64,000 nucleotides of DNA from Bacillota bacterium (lineage in GTDB: Bacteria; Bacillota; Clostridia; Peptostreptococcales; Anaerovoracaceae), in the NCBI GenBank assembly GCA_022790955.1, contig JAAVYD010000034.1, forward strand, positions 1 through 64,000, in the 5' to 3' direction. The first letter of the stretch is position 1; each line of letters starts with the position of its first letter. Below the pieces are notes generated by a model, which saw only the letters and a program-made list of their open reading frames with translations, was not told the origin of the DNA and made no database searches. Positions 55,925 to 64,000 of this stretch are shown piece after piece. The position numbers were made by a program, and so were the translations under genes.

Positions 55925-58900
55925 TCAGCAAAACGCAAACAGCGTAAGCTGATCCGATTCCGGCAGACCTTCCAGTATACCGTGTTCCCGCATAGTTTCT
56001 ATATTACTGGAATTTACAGAAGTTCTCGTACTTATATCTTCTACCGAACTGAACGGCCCTTTCTTAAATTCTTCCGCCAGACTTACTGCCGCTGTTTCTC
56101 CCATGCCGTCGAGGGCGCGAAAAGGTATCCTCACTTTGCCATTCTCCACAGAAAATCTTAAAGCGTCGGAATTTCCAAAGCGTGCGGGCAGAAATTCATA
56201 TCCACGAGCAAACATCTCGTAAACTACTTCATATATGAGATATTCGTCCTTTTCTTTATTTGTAGCTTCGTTCCCCAATTTTTTTATCATATTCATCTTA
56301 TCGAGAACGGACTGCAAACCGCCCATTATCACATTAGTATTAAAAAAATCAACCTTCATAGTATAATGAACCGCATAAAATTCCGGCGGATAATACACTT
56401 TAAAATACGCTATGCGATATGACATCATAACATAAGCCACAGCGTGAGCCTTAGGAAACATATACTTAATTCTCTTGCACGATTCTATATACCAGCCCGG
56501 AACGTTGTTTGCAAGCATCAATGTTTCCTGTTCCTCGGTTATGCTCTTTCCTTTACGTACGCGTTCCATGATGGTAAATGAATCCTGCTTCGGAAGTCCT
56601 TTGTTTATAAGATAGTTCATAATGTCGTCTCTTGTGGCGATAGCGTCGTCCATAGTCGCCTCGCCGCTTCTTATAAACTCCTGAGCGTTATTTATCCATA
56701 CATCCGTACCGTGAGAAAATCCTGAGATACGCACCAACGCAGAAAATTTTTGAGGCTTGGTATCGTCCAGCATCTGGCGCGTAAAGCTCGTGCCGAATTC
56801 CGGTATCCCGAAAGTTCCATGACGCTGCTTATAATCGTCTATCTTAATATCGAGGTTTTCTGTTCCCAAAAATATGCTGTTCACTTTCTCGTCGCTGAGG
56901 GGCACCTCGTTAGGAGATATTCCAGTCATATCCTGAAGCATTCTTATCATGGACGGCACATCATGACCGAGGATATCCAGTTTAAGCAGATTTTCATCTA
57001 TCTTATGATAATCAAAATGGGTAGTAATGATATCTTTGCCCGCGCCTTCCGCCGGATGCATTACCGGACAAAACTCATATATCTCATGACCTTCCGGCAC
57101 GATTACTATGCCCCCTGGATGCTGGCCCGTTGTCTTTCTCACGCCAGTGCAGCCCAGAGCCAGACGTTCCGCCTCGCATTTATTAACAATTTGACCTCTT
57201 TCTTCAAAATACCGCTTTACATATCCCAGAGCCATTTTATCCTTAATCGTACCTATAGTGCCCGCCTTAAATACGTTTTTCGCTCCAAATATCTCCTCAA
57301 CATATTTATGAGCCGTCGCCTGATATTCACCCGCAAAGTTAAGATCTATATCAGGCTCCTTGTCGCCTTTAAATCCAAGAAACGTTTCAAACGGGATACT
57401 GAATCCGTCTTTTTTGTAATCGGTTCCGCAGACCGGACACTTTTTATCTGGCATATCTACGCCGCAGTCGTACGAACCATCCTCGATAAACTCAGAATGT
57501 TTACATTCCGGATTCGGGCAGATATAATGAGGCGGCAGCGGATTTACCTCGGTGATGCCGTCCATAGTGGCGGCAAAAGAAGAACCGACCGAGCCCCTCG
57601 AACCTACGAGATATCCGTCTGACAGAGATTTCTGCACGAGCATCTCGGCAGCCACGTACATCACTGCATAACCGTTTCCTATTATAGAATTAAGTTCTTT
57701 TTTTAAACGTTCTTCCACTATTTCAGGCAGAGGATCTCCATAAATCTCATGAGCCTTGCCGTAGCATCTTGACCTCAGACGATCCTCCGCACCGTCTATC
57801 TTAGGCGGGAATTTTCCCTTGGGAACCGGAATAAGTTCTTCCACAGAATCTGCTATGATCTTCGGATTTTCTATTACAACCCTGCGGGCTTCCTCCTCGC
57901 CGAGATACGAAAACTCCTCAAGCATTTCATCGGTAGTCCTGAGCCACAGCTTGGGCTTTTCGTCGAGCTCCTTAAAACCGTGAGCCGCCATTATTATATT
58001 TCTGTATATGTAATCTTCTTCATTAAGATAATGCGCGTCGCAGGTAGCTACAACGGGTTTATCCGTGATTTTCCCGAACTCGACTATCTTTCTGTTATAA
58101 TTAAGCAGATCCTCCGCACCGCTGACCATGCCTTTTTCCACCATGAACATATTATTGCTGCGCGGCTGTATCTCCAGATAATCGTAAAATTCTATAACCT
58201 TAAGCACTTCTTCGTCGGATTTTCCCTCGGTCATCGCGCGAAATACCTCGCCTGCCTCGCATGCGGAACCTATTATAAGCCCTTCACGAAGCTCTGCGAT
58301 AACGGACTTGGGCATGCGCGGACGCTTATAGTGATATTTTAAAAACGAAAAAGAAACCAATTTATAAAGATTTTTAAGTCCCGTCTGGTTCTTGGCGATA
58401 AGGATTATGTGCCTTGCAGGATTTGTCTTATAGTCCAGCTCGCCGTTCGGCAAAAGGATATCATCAACAAGATAACCTTCTACACCGAAAAGTATCTTAA
58501 TATCTCCGCCCGCAGCTTTGGCAGCGTCCGGGAAGGACTGTACCACGCCGTGATCGGTAACTGCAACGGCGCTGTGTCCCCACTTCTTTGCGGTATTAAC
58601 GAGTTCCTTAACATCCATAAGACCGTCTATCTGGCTCATCTTCGTGTGAGCGTGAAGCTCTATGCGCTTCTCATCACTAATATCTGTTCTCTCAGGTTTC
58701 TCTGAAAGTTCAATACTCTGCGCCATCATCACAATCATCTTCTCGAAATTATCAAACTCGCAGTTTCCTTTAACTTTAATATAAGAACCTGTTTTTATAT
58801 ACTCGTCGAAATCCTCTTGTTTTTTAGCCGTAACAAACATCTTAACACAAATGGAATCCGTTCCGTCCGTCATATAAATAAACGCTATGCTTTTACCATT

Positions 58901-59716
58901 TTTTATAGTTCTGGAATCCGTACGAAAAACGCTGCCTTCTATAATAACATCGCTGCTTTCACTGTTAAGATCTTTAATTTTAACGATCTCGCCGGAGATG
59001 GCCTTGCCTACAATCCGATTTCCGGCAACAGCGCCTTCATAAGAATTCCCCCTGCGGTATCCGCCGCCCGAACCATTACTATTTTTATATGCCAAACCGC
59101 TGCCGTTTTCAGCAGGATTATTTTTAGCATTTTCTCTTGCGGCTCTCGCCGCCTTTTCAGCCTCCGCGCTTATGCGCCTGAGTTCCTCATCCGTCTGATC
59201 TTCTATGGCTCTTACCTTTTCACCGTATTTTTCACTCTTGTTCCTGAAAGCAAATACTCTATCTATATTAAAATCGTGCTTGAGCATATTGCGCATGGCG
59301 GGCGCCGCCACCTTGTTTAAATGATTTACTGTCTGCTCACCCAGAGCGTAAATTATAATGCAATCCTGTTCCAGAGTAAAAGAACCCATATCCGCAGTGT
59401 GTCTAAGACCACCCAAATCGGACATAGATTCCATCATGTACGGTATAAACAACCGAATAATCTCCTCCTCAGAAAGCGCGGTATTTTCATATCTGAACCG
59501 GCATGAAACCGCGGAAAGATCGCCGAATTCCGCTTTTATCTTTCTCTTTATATTCTGAAGATCGTTATAAGGAATTATGTAATTTAACGATATATCGAGA
59601 TGCAGTTCGTTTTCTTCTTTTAATAGAAACGCATTTTCTATATTCATACTAAACTCGCTCCTGTCGTGAGGAGCGAGTTCATTCCATGAAACATTTTCTT
59701 CTATAAAATTTTTCAT
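55925..59716 (-). CDS. polC: DNA polymerase III alpha subunit, PolC type, apparently lacking exonuclease insertion
   Basis: 1263 aa; OB, PHP, zinc motif CPNPECKHSEF...CPVCGTDYKKDG, PDIDLNFAGEYQ; no ETTGL-type DEDDh domain between YLVDD and KTNPARHIILIAKN. Confidence 0.95.
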   Translation of the reverse strand: MKNFIEENVSWNELAPHDRSEFSMNIENAFLLKEENELHLDISLNYIIPYNDLQNIKRKIKAEFGDLSAVSCRFRYENTALSEEEIIRLFIPYMMESMSDLGGLRHTADMGSFTLEQDCIIIYALGEQTVNHLNKVAAPAMRNMLKHDFNIDRVFAFRNKSEKYGEKVRAIEDQTDEELRRISAEAEKAARAARENAKNNPAENGSGLAYKNSNGSGGGYRRGNSYEGAVAGNRIVGKAISGEIVKIKDLNSESSDVIIEGSVFRTDSRTIKNGKSIAFIYMTDGTDSICVKMFVTAKKQEDFDEYIKTGSYIKVKGNCEFDNFEKMIVMMAQSIELSEKPERTDISDEKRIELHAHTKMSQIDGLMDVKELVNTAKKWGHSAVAVTDHGVVQSFPDAAKAAGGDIKILFGVEGYLVDDILLPNGELDYKTNPARHIILIAKNQTGLKNLYKLVSFSFLKYHYKRPRMPKSVIAELREGLIIGSACEAGEVFRAMTEGKSDEEVLKVIEFYDYLEIQPRSNNMFMVEKGMVSGAEDLLNYNRKIVEFGKITDKPVVATCDAHYLNEEDYIYRNIIMAAHGFKELDEKPKLWLRTTDEMLEEFSYLGEEEARRVVIENPKIIADSVEELIPVPKGKFPPKIDGAEDRLRSRCYGKAHEIYGDPLPEIVEERLKKELNSIIGNGYAVMYVAAEMLVQKSLSDGYLVGSRGSVGSSFAATMDGITEVNPLPPHYICPNPECKHSEFIEDGSYDCGVDMPDKKCPVCGTDYKKDGFSIPFETFLGFKGDKEPDIDLNFAGEYQATAHKYVEEIFGAKNVFKAGTIGTIKDKMALGYVKRYFEERGQIVNKCEAERLALGCTGVRKTTGQHPGGIVIVPEGHEIYEFCPVMHPAEGAGKDIITTHFDYHKIDENLLKLDILGHDVPSMIRMLQDMTGISPNEVPLSDEKVNSIFLGTENLDIKIDDYKQRHGTFGIPEFGTSFTRQMLDDTKPQKFSALVRISGFSHGTDVWINNAQEFIRSGEATMDDAIATRDDIMNYLINKGLPKQDSFTIMERVRKGKSITEEQETLMLANNVPGWYIESCKRIKYMFPKAHAVAYVMMSYRIAYFKVYYPPEFYAVHYTMKVDFFNTNVIMGGLQSVLDKMNMIKKLGNEATNKEKDEYLIYEVVYEMFARGYEFLPARFGNSDALRFSVENGKVRIPFRALDGMGETAAVSLAEEFKKGPFSSVEDISTRTSVNSSNIETMREHGILEGLPESDQLTLFAFC

Positions 59717-59733: not shown

Positions 59734-60657
59734 CTATATATCCTTTGAAACCAATTCCCTTACAGATGTGGCAAGACCGGCAAGACCCGCTATATTGGAA
59801 GGGATAATGAGTTTTGTAGCCTTACCGTCCGCAGCCTGAGCAAAGGCTTCCAGGCTCTTGAGAGAAATAACCTCGTCTGTCGGGCTGGATTCTACTATCA
59901 TCTTAATACCGTCAGCGGTAGCCTGCTGCACCATCCTGATAGCTTCAGCTTCGCCCTCCGCAGTCCTGATTGCAGCTTCCTTGCTTGCCTCGGCTTCAAG
60001 AATAGTCGCCTGTTTGCTCGCTTCAGCTTTAAGAATCTCCGCCTGTTTATTACCTTCAGCGATTAAAATAGCCGATTTCTTTTCTCCTTCTGCTTTGAGA
60101 ATTGCTTCTCTTCTTTCTCTTTCCGCACGCATCTGTTTTTCCATAGCTTCCTGGATATCCCTCGGCGGAACAATATTTTTTACTTCAACACGGTTAATCT
60201 TAATACCCCAGGCATCGGTAGCTTCATCTAATACTATCCTGATTTTGGAATTTATGATCTCGCGACTGGTCAGCGATTCGTCAAGCTCCAGCTCGCCGAT
60301 AATATTTCTCAGTGTAGTAGCCGTAAGATTTTCTATCGCAGCCATAGGATTAGCCACTCCATAAGTATAAAGTTTCGGATCTGTTATCTGAAAATAGATT
60401 ACCGTATCTATTTCCATAGTTACGTTATCCTTCGTAATAACCGGCTGAGGAGGAAAATCTATAACGTGTTCTTTTAAAGATACCTTCTTCGCTATCTTAT
60501 CTATAAGAGGGATCTTAACGTGAATGCCCACCTCCCAGGTTCCGCTGTACGCGCCAAGACGTTCCAGCACATAAGCATTTGCCTGAGGAACTATCCTTAT
60601 ATTAACAGCAATAAGAATCGCCGCTATAATAAGAATTATCATCATAAAAATCAGCAT
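59734..60657 (-). CDS. SPFH/band 7 (stomatin/QmcA-like) protein
   Basis: VPQANAYVLERLGAYSGTWEVGIHVKIPLIDKIAKKVSLKEHVIDFPPQPVITKDNV. Confidence 0.95.
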   Translation of the reverse strand: MLIFMMIILIIAAILIAVNIRIVPQANAYVLERLGAYSGTWEVGIHVKIPLIDKIAKKVSLKEHVIDFPPQPVITKDNVTMEIDTVIYFQITDPKLYTYGVANPMAAIENLTATTLRNIIGELELDESLTSREIINSKIRIVLDEATDAWGIKINRVEVKNIVPPRDIQEAMEKQMRAERERREAILKAEGEKKSAILIAEGNKQAEILKAEASKQATILEAEASKEAAIRTAEGEAEAIRMVQQATADGIKMIVESSPTDEVISLKSLEAFAQAADGKATKLIIPSNIAGLAGLATSVRELVSKDI

Positions 60658-60658
60658 A

Positions 60659-61126
60659 CTAATTTTCCTTTCTAACTATAAGTTTGACACCTTCAATCGC
60701 TAAAACAATAACCCTGTCTCCTGAGGAGATTTCCGGAGAATCTTCCGCCAAAACGGCAGTCCATATCTTGTTATCAGCTTTTACGGTACCGTTTTCATAT
60801 TTCCTAATATCGGACTCCGCCGATCCGGTCATTCCCACAACAGCGTCGACATTAGTCTTTACAGTATCTTTGTTTAACTTTTTTACTGCAAGAGGTCTTG
60901 TAAAATAAAGCAGCAGCAAAGATACCAGTATAAATATTAAAAGCTGTAAAAGAAAATTATCCGTAAAAAAAGATGCAACCGCCGCGATCAACGCGCCTCC
61001 TGCAAACCAGATAGTTCCAAGTCCCATAGTCATCGCTTCCACTATACCGAGCACCACCGCCGCAGCCAGCCACAATACCCACATCGGCATCCATTCGTCT
61101 GCCATACTTGATAAAAAATCAAACAT
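60659..61126 (-). CDS. NfeD-family membrane protein
   Basis: 155 aa membrane N-terminus plus OB-fold VVGMTGSAESDI...GDRVIVLAIEGVKLIV, adjacent to SPFH gene. Confidence 0.9.
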   Translation of the reverse strand: MFDFLSSMADEWMPMWVLWLAAAVVLGIVEAMTMGLGTIWFAGGALIAAVASFFTDNFLLQLLIFILVSLLLLYFTRPLAVKKLNKDTVKTNVDAVVGMTGSAESDIRKYENGTVKADNKIWTAVLAEDSPEISSGDRVIVLAIEGVKLIVRKEN

Positions 61127-61249: not shown

Positions 61250-62341
61250 TTAACGCTCTTTCAGATTTTTTATCAATTCCGCCGTTTCCGAAAGCAGTAC
61301 TTCCTCAATCTCCATTTCGTCTACCCTTTTTATTATTTCGCCTTTTTTGAAAATTACGCCCATACGCTCGCCGCACGCCACGCCTACATCCGCCTGAGCA
61401 GCCTCGCCTGGACCGTTCACCGCGCAGCCCATTACCGCAATGGTTATCTGCGGCAGATTTCGCTTTATCATTTCCGCTTCGAGCGGAGCGATTTTTTTCA
61501 TGAGCCTATCTGTTATCTCCGGCATATTCGTCCGGCATCTTGCGCAGGTCGGACAGGAAACCACATTAATACCCGAATCCAGATTGCCCGTACACTTTAA
61601 TATTTCCATAGCAACAGGAATCTCTTTCAGAGGATCGCCCGTGAGCGAAACCCGCAGGGTATCCCCGATGCCCGCAAGCAGGATCGCTCCAAGTCCTACC
61701 GAAGACTTGACCGTCCCACGCCGCTCGTCGCCGGATTCCGTCACGCCTATATGAAGCGGATAATCCGTTTTCTCGGACATTAAAAGATACGTTTTGTAAT
61801 TTAATATTACATCCGAAGCCTTAACAGAAATTACTATATCTTCAAAATCCATGCTCTCCACGAGCCGAACCTTTTTCAGCACGCTCTCCACGAGTCCTGC
61901 CGCGGTAACGCCGCCGTATTTCGCAAGAATATCTTTCTCCACTGAACCGGAATTTACCCCGATCCTTATAGGAATCTTCCGTGCCTTCGCCGCGTTCACC
62001 ACCGCGCGCACCCTGTCCTCAGAACCTATATTCCCCGGATTTATGCGCACCTTATCCGCGCCCTTTTCTATCGCCGCCACCGCCAGCCTGTAATCAAAAT
62101 GGATATCCGCAACAAGCGGCATATCCGTGCGCTTTCTTATCCTGCCGAACGCCTCAGCCGCCTCGGCATCAGGCACCGCCAGCCTTACAATCTGACATCC
62201 TGCTTCCTCAAGCGCCTTTATCTGCGCCAGAGTAGCCTCCGCATCCCTCGTATCCGTATTCGTCATCGACTGAATAACGACCGGCGCGCCTCCTCCGATC
62301 TTGATCCCTCTGCAGGTTATTTGTTTTGTGATTTTTTTCAT
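61250..62341 (-). CDS. ispG: 4-hydroxy-3-methylbut-2-enyl diphosphate synthase
   Basis: GGGAPVVIQSMTNTDTRDAEAT...NPGNIGS...CPTCARCRTN...MGCAVNGPGEA. Confidence 0.97.
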   Translation of the reverse strand: MKKITKQITCRGIKIGGGAPVVIQSMTNTDTRDAEATLAQIKALEEAGCQIVRLAVPDAEAAEAFGRIRKRTDMPLVADIHFDYRLAVAAIEKGADKVRINPGNIGSEDRVRAVVNAAKARKIPIRIGVNSGSVEKDILAKYGGVTAAGLVESVLKKVRLVESMDFEDIVISVKASDVILNYKTYLLMSEKTDYPLHIGVTESGDERRGTVKSSVGLGAILLAGIGDTLRVSLTGDPLKEIPVAMEILKCTGNLDSGINVVSCPTCARCRTNMPEITDRLMKKIAPLEAEMIKRNLPQITIAVMGCAVNGPGEAAQADVGVACGERMGVIFKKGEIIKRVDEMEIEEVLLSETAELIKNLKER

Positions 62342-62449: not shown

Positions 62450-64000
62450 TCACTCTACTCCGAGAGCTTTAAATACAGCATCTTCTGCAGTGCTATAAAA
62501 AATTAAGTTAAAACATCCTATAAGTTCTGCAGGAACAGTACCAAGATCTGCAGCCGATGTAATTGGCAGCAGGACTTTTTTAGCTCCGCTGTCAAGACAC
62601 ACTTGCAGAGAATTTGCTAATTCTTCAACCTTAATCATAGTTCCGCTGATGCTAATTTCTCCTAACACTGCTGTTGAACTTAAAATCGGTTTTCCGATAG
62701 CAATAGAACATAATGCAATTAATGTTGGCAATGCCAATCTGCTCATCATTCCTATACCCTGCAAATCCTGATAATTTACAATATAATCCTTAGTGGTAGT
62801 ACTTATAGCTCCACTGATCCGATTTCCGTTTGCTTTCAGAAAATTAAACGCTGTATTTGAAGATTCTTTTGCTTCACGATCAGAACCTATACCAGTTCGT
62901 TCAAACTTACCGCTACCTGGCAGCATCTGAGATTCCAAACGAAATACACCTATCATTCCTGATTTTCCATGTCCTACAGTATATACCTGCCCCGGATTAC
63001 ACATTCCCTCTGGTATTAGTTTTCCGCCGCCTTGTTCCGGTACAGATACATAATTTTCTTCAAAAGTATCGTTATCAATATATGAAAAATTCACATCATA
63101 AAATTCCATTCCTCCCAGCTTCTTCAACTGTTCCTTAACACGACGTCTCATTTCCAGCGATAACTTTAAAATCTCCTCTAATTGCTCTTTTGAAAACTCA
63201 CCATGTGGATACAACAGTTTTAAAAAACCTCCAACCATCTTTCTTACAGCAATCGTATCACGTTGATTCAGATTCTTTCCCAAATGAAAATATTTGTCTA
63301 AAGCATCTCCATACTGTTCTTTACGAAGTTCACGAACAAACTCTGCAAGATAATCCGTAATGAAACCATAATCATCTGTAAAATGTTCCGGTCTAAATTT
63401 TGGTATTTCCCAGCCGGGAATATAACAATGCATACGATCAAGGAACGCTGTATCTGTTCCCATTTCTGTAGGAAACGGATCGAATAAACTCGAAGTTTTA
63501 AGCAGAACATCCACACTTTGATTTATATTACCTACAAACACCATTGATGCGGAAGCCGCTTTTTCTTCTTTCCCACGGGCAAAAGAACCTGAAGCCATGT
63601 AATCTTTCATAATCTGAATACCGTCTTTATCCTTAAAGTTGATACCTGCGACCTCATCAAATGCTACACAGTCCCACATACCAACTAAACCAACTGTCTT
63701 TCTTCCCATATTGTAAAAAAGGTTCGCAACCGTTGTCTGACCGCCGGAAACAAGAATACTATTTGGCGAAATTTCTTTATAAAGATGAGATTTTCCTGTG
63801 CTTCTCGGACCAAGCTCACAAAGATTAAAATTATTTTCTATAAGCGGAATCATTCGTGTAAGTAAAAGCCACTTTTCACGCTCCTGCAGATTATCCGGCT
63901 CCATACCGATAGAACGAAGCAATACGTCTATCCATTCTTCTTTCGTAAACGCTTTTCTGCCTTCTTTTACTTCATTAATATTTATATGCGGCATCTGAAT
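62450..64000 (-). CDS. brxL: BREX system Lon-like protease BrxL, 5' end outside window
   Basis: RSTGKSHLYKEISPNSILVSGGQTTVANLFYN...GNINQ...; frame stays open to the window edge (..IQMPHININEV). Confidence 0.9.
   Translation of the reverse strand: MQMPHININEVKEGRKAFTKEEWIDVLLRSIGMEPDNLQEREKWLLLTRMIPLIENNFNLCELGPRSTGKSHLYKEISPNSILVSGGQTTVANLFYNMGRKTVGLVGMWDCVAFDEVAGINFKDKDGIQIMKDYMASGSFARGKEEKAASASMVFVGNINQSVDVLLKTSSLFDPFPTEMGTDTAFLDRMHCYIPGWEIPKFRPEHFTDDYGFITDYLAEFVRELRKEQYGDALDKYFHLGKNLNQRDTIAVRKMVGGFLKLLYPHGEFSKEQLEEILKLSLEMRRRVKEQLKKLGGMEFYDVNFSYIDNDTFEENYVSVPEQGGGKLIPEGMCNPGQVYTVGHGKSGMIGVFRLESQMLPGSGKFERTGIGSDREAKESSNTAFNFLKANGNRISGAISTTTKDYIVNYQDLQGIGMMSRLALPTLIALCSIAIGKPILSSTAVLGEISISGTMIKVEELANSLQVCLDSGAKKVLLPITSAADLGTVPAELIGCFNLIFYSTAEDAVFKALGVE

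Follow-up and report, generated by a model that had tools for sequence, protein, structure and literature searches.

Polymerase III alpha subunits of the PolC type that lack the exonuclease (Exo) insertion were described by Timinskas et al. (2013, PMC3919608), who found them to make up 6% of PolCs and to occur almost exclusively in Clostridia and Negativicutes. In genomes encoding both PolC and DnaE1, the insertion is absent from 16% of PolCs, and the PHP domain ligands are generally conserved in PolCs (PMC3919608). How the two polymerases divide the work in such bacteria was stated there to be an open question, with the suggestion that DnaE1 may be able to replicate the genome alone (PMC3919608). 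A 2026 survey by the same authors recognizes active PHP domains by the motif HHDHEH[C/H]DH (PMC12926913). The nine-ligand PHP domain of Mycobacterium tuberculosis DnaE1 is an active three-zinc exonuclease, and that of Geobacillus kaustophilus PolC, in which one ligand is changed, is reported to be inactive as an exonuclease (PMC5636811).

The 64,000-nucleotide stretch analysed here (the window) carries the only PolC gene in the genome of a gut bacterium of the Anaerovoracaceae (Table 1). The encoded protein exceeds the cut-offs of two curated NCBIfam PolC models (NF001688, 1509.6 bits, cut-off 873; TIGR01405, 1336.6 bits, cut-off 1043), the match being broken in two at the expected position of the exonuclease. 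OB, PHP, DNA_pol3_alpha, finger and HHH_6 domains are recognized by Pfam, and the chain aligns with G. kaustophilus PolC (PDB 3f2b) across residues 247-1261, the OB and PHP domains lying N-terminal to the polymerase core; both model scores and this domain placement identify the protein as a PolC-type DNA polymerase III alpha. It is not a canonical PolC, in which a DEDDh exonuclease interrupts the PHP domain. A Pfam scan of the full 1263-residue protein found no RNase_T domain anywhere in the chain, ruling out relocation of the exonuclease within the protein, a possibility that the earlier note had allowed for. The absence of an Exo insertion, a co-encoded DnaE1 and a lineage within the Clostridia are the features of the exonuclease-less clostridial PolC variant.

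Table 1. The polC gene of the window, its domains and PHP ligands, and its conserved neighbour (window coordinates; residue numbers are those of PolC)
Feature	Coordinates	Strand	Remarks
polC, exonuclease-less PolC-type DNA polymerase III alpha	55925..59716	(-)	1263 aa, one open frame
N-terminal PolC domain region, residues 1-245	58982..59716	(-)	without a Pfam model of its own; relatives align across residues 1-1261
OB domain, residues 257-336	58709..58948	(-)	Pfam PF01336; predicted structure
PHP domain, uninterrupted, about residues 353-600	57917..58660	(-)	Pfam PF02811; AlphaFold2 model
PHP metal ligands 1-3: H355, H357, D364 (HAHTKMSQID)	58625..58654	(-)	
PHP metal ligand 4: H389 (TDHG)	58550..58552	(-)	
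PHP metal ligand 5: E413 (GVE)	58478..58480	(-)	
22-residue loop, residues 414-435, GYLVDDILLPNGELDYKTNPAR	58412..58477	(-)	position of the DEDDh exonuclease in other PolCs
PHP metal ligand 6: H436 (ARH)	58409..58411	(-)	
PHP metal ligand 7: C486 (SAC)	58259..58261	(-)	
PHP metal ligands 8-9: D560, H562 (CDAH)	58031..58039	(-)	
ispG (gcpE), conserved polC neighbour	61250..62341	(-)	close to polC in all 46 relatives for which 15-kb loci were compared

PHP ligands 5 and 6 are separated by 22 residues in the window PolC, compared with 207-237 residues in 60 exonuclease-bearing PolCs, where the interval holds an intact DEDDh exonuclease. An AlphaFold2 model of the OB and PHP part (pLDDT 93) is confident through the excision loop and has 3f2b as its best PDB match. 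All nine PHP ligands are present, reading HHDHEHCDH, i.e. the motif of a PHP proofreading polymerase. Thus, the earlier note, made from the DNA letters, was correct in reporting a PolC without a DnaQ-like exonuclease, in placing the gap at 58400-58490 (a range spanning E413-H436) and in describing a complete nine-ligand site, which the alignment confirms; its statement that the last motif reads GNVH in Bacillus subtilis PolC holds for G. kaustophilus PolC, the species compared in its place. In another exonuclease-less PolC (L060, genome G121) the same site is occupied by a 68-residue stretch, which was considered as an exonuclease remnant and rejected, as it is an Ala/Ser/Gly-rich loop.

The constant proximity of ispG and polC among relatives indicates that the gene is native and in its original place. 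The window PolC is the sole PolC of its genome and a member of the known exonuclease-less clostridial class. Two genes, one for a protein with an SPFH domain and one for an NfeD-like protein, lie between ispG and polC (59734-61126, minus strand); among the 46 relatives with long loci, SPFH is found in this interval in two and NfeD in one. Beyond ispG, positions 62450-63994 (minus strand) encode the BREX defence protein BrxL, the match covering positions 167-680 of the 680 in the PADLOC BrxL profile; the reading frame has not closed where the window ends, and the gene therefore probably extends past it.

Relatives were surveyed because the genome that includes the window is 88% complete, in 208 contigs. 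Such MAG-level quality could favour an assembly deletion or a pseudogene as the cause of the missing domain, but the polC frame and domains are intact, and the identical junction recurs in six further families of its class and in 93 other Anaerovoracaceae genomes, among them the closed single-contig genome of Eubacterium minutum (CP016202.1); a survey of close relatives for the same deletion had been proposed in the earlier note. Independent assemblies rule out an artefact, and the probability left to this explanation is negligible. Among 150 Anaerovoracaceae genomes, 94 have an exonuclease-less PolC, 16 an exonuclease-bearing one, and 40 either no PolC or fragments only, so that the domain is absent in 94 and kept in 16 of the 110 genomes with a scorable PolC. 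Named relatives in the family are Mogibacterium, Emergencia, Hornefia, Aminicella and Eubacterium minutum, and the exonuclease-less state includes cultured species. Outside the family, PolC frames in the order sample are near-uniformly of full length, and the class sample contains 16 PolCs without the exonuclease, from six other families, all confirmed by sequence. The architecture is therefore real, lineage-wide and previously described; that most PolCs of the clade might prove equally short and already known (PMC3919608) had been foreseen in the earlier note as an outcome that would refute its proposal. Four PolC frames in the class sample, all from one family (f47; G322, G344, G386 and G404), are of 1646-1705 aa, ~200 aa over the usual length.

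In the tree built from the polymerase core, the basal positions are taken by exonuclease-bearing PolCs from other families and from two Anaerovoracaceae lineages; exonuclease-bearing genomes are likewise basal on the DnaE1 tree of the family, so that the absence of the exonuclease is derived. A third exonuclease-bearing group (G008, G049, G088 and G119) is placed among the exonuclease-less PolCs on the core tree. Constraining all exonuclease-less PolCs to one clade gave a borderline result (AU test, p 0.049), and hence one loss, two losses or a regain are compatible with the data. The DEDDh domain was thus lost within the Anaerovoracaceae, probably once or twice.

From these features the earlier note had proposed that proofreading may have moved, either to the PHP domain or to a separate DnaQ; the comparison does not bear out a move to the PHP domain, and there is little support for a separate DnaQ. 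The nine-ligand PHP set is complete in 158 of the 158 exonuclease-less PolCs in which the region is complete (Anaerovoracaceae and six other families), but is equally complete in 58 of 60 exonuclease-bearing PolCs (16/16 from the same family, 42/44 from the same class), so that the intact PHP site was inherited and not gained, one of two candidate proofreaders having been dropped. The divergence of the PHP domain relative to the polymerase core is near equal in the two groups; with the ligands equally intact in exonuclease-bearing PolCs there is no sign of extra work by the PHP domain, and a tighter constraint on it after exonuclease loss was rejected. A contrast between sites that are always intact without the exonuclease and sometimes broken with it has an exact chance of ~0.075 with relatedness ignored, and is therefore not counted as a finding. 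The two exceptions among the 60, both from one other clostridial family (L305 and L312), have badly broken PHP sites (HHADDKGDR and EHDTESGSR) with an intact DEDDh domain, the reverse of the window PolC. Metal-dependent folding could also account for the conservation of the PolC ligands.

Were a free-standing DnaQ-like exonuclease to proofread in trans, it would here have to be the one RNase_T protein of the genome, of 455 aa (contig C123, L001:664-2031), which has a zinc-ribbon/TPR-like part at its N-terminus and a DEDDh exonuclease at its C-terminus. This domain scores best against PolC-type exonucleases (31-37% identity), and some RNase_T protein is present in all six sampled relatives of the subclade to which the window belongs. 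The 455-aa protein is, however, full-length in only two of the 150 family genomes (its own and G046) and is encoded between restriction-modification-like genes, so that it was rejected as the relocated PolC exonuclease, and the other RNase_T proteins of the subclade belong to different subfamilies and are not orthologues. RNase_T proteins are absent from 94 of the 150 family genomes, a count equal to that of the exonuclease-less genomes by coincidence, and from 50 of the 84 of best quality. No conserved stand-alone DEDDh exonuclease co-occurring with exonuclease-less PolC was found among the 150 family genomes, nor a shared orthologue within the subclade. It is therefore unlikely that a DnaQ replaces the lost domain across the family, and proofreading in trans by the 455-aa protein is very improbable.

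Elsewhere in the family PolC is absent altogether from several well-complete genomes. Many PolC-less genomes are 90-98% complete, including G063 and four same-genus pairs at 91-98% completeness (G037/G112, G038/G113, G046/G117 and G067/G126), and in several cases both sampled members of a genus are without PolC. A TIGR01405 search of 30 PolC-less genomes gave no match above 144 bits (cut-off 1043, which all three PolC-bearing control genomes exceeded), and what it did find was at the level of DnaE or confined to the exonuclease. On the DnaE1 tree the exonuclease-less genomes follow the basal exonuclease-bearing ones, and the PolC-less genomes are nested among the former, forming one clade of 11 rows, a second of 14 and scattered cases; this is a quick tree without bootstrap, in which the second clade is weakened by low-completeness genomes. 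HHDHEHCDH is kept in 76 of the 76 DnaE1 rows with a complete region, and the PHP site of DnaE1 in the genome under study is complete. MutS is also present in that genome. Its DNA polymerase I family matches number two, a 931-aa frame and a partial one of 352 aa close to the start of its contig (contigs C28 and C96); the second may be a second gene, a strain variant or contamination.

The nested PolC-less pattern fits the 2013 suggestion of replication by DnaE1 alone (PMC3919608), and is also compatible with a PolC that can be dispensed with beside a DnaE1 that would proofread its own synthesis. It may be that PolC has become a relaxed accessory polymerase, with a PHP-proofreading DnaE1 copying both strands, in which case the fidelity of PolC would be irrelevant and its PHP site need not be active. 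This alternative, raised for PolC plus DnaE1 systems in 2013 (PMC3919608), accords with the outright loss of PolC in at least two nested clades and with the uniformly intact DnaE1 PHP sites, but a relaxed enzyme would be expected to have broken sites in some members, whereas the ligands are perfect in every exonuclease-less PolC scored, and PolC shows good conservation of its core and synteny with ispG; we regard it as rather unlikely. The explanation that best accommodates the evidence as a whole, and which we hold to be probable, is that the PHP domain of this member of the known exonuclease-less class, whose DEDDh domain was lost in the family, proofreads in cis, and that PolC is dispensable beside DnaE1. 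In mechanistic terms, loss of the DEDDh domain left a short loop in an otherwise unbroken PHP domain, and the inherited nine-ligand, three-metal site would still act as a 3'-5' nuclease, proofreading in cis. The loss may have been tolerated because mismatch repair is available and the PHP site of the partner polymerase DnaE1 is equally intact, and PolC would no longer be the indispensable main replicase of the lineage, as several relatives nested among the exonuclease-less ones keep DnaE1 without PolC. More tentatively, PolC in the Anaerovoracaceae may have been dismantled stepwise, from an enzyme with its exonuclease, to one proofreading by PHP only, to no PolC, with DnaE1 replicating the whole chromosome.

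Stepwise dismantling, if correct, would allow close relatives to be compared so as to test whether PolC or DnaE1 copies the chromosome where both are present; since the Anaerovoracaceae hold all three PolC states, comparisons within the family could separate what PolC, its PHP domain and DnaE1 each do. As PolC serves as a drug target, gut clostridia that lack it or have it in altered form may bear on the selectivity of PolC inhibitors.

Comparison with the described systems places the window PolC closest to the exonuclease-less PolCs of Timinskas et al. (PMC3919608), with which it shares the architecture without the Exo insertion, the pairing with DnaE1 and the conserved PHP metal site, and from which it shows no architectural difference. 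G. kaustophilus PolC has the same domains, and its crystallographers excised the exonuclease at the same place (PMC12592400), giving a fold that works and binds DNA; by contrast with the window PolC, however, the natural enzyme carries the exonuclease, and has N in place of D560. M. tuberculosis DnaE1 likewise has the nine-ligand PHP set in a chain without a DEDDh domain, but is of the DnaE1 type and has demonstrated activity, which for the window PolC is a prediction. What is added to the 2013 description is a family-wide survey, a reconstruction with one or two losses, and the nested PolC-less genomes; the value of these additions lies in a step series of exonuclease-bearing, exonuclease-less and PolC-less members inside one family.
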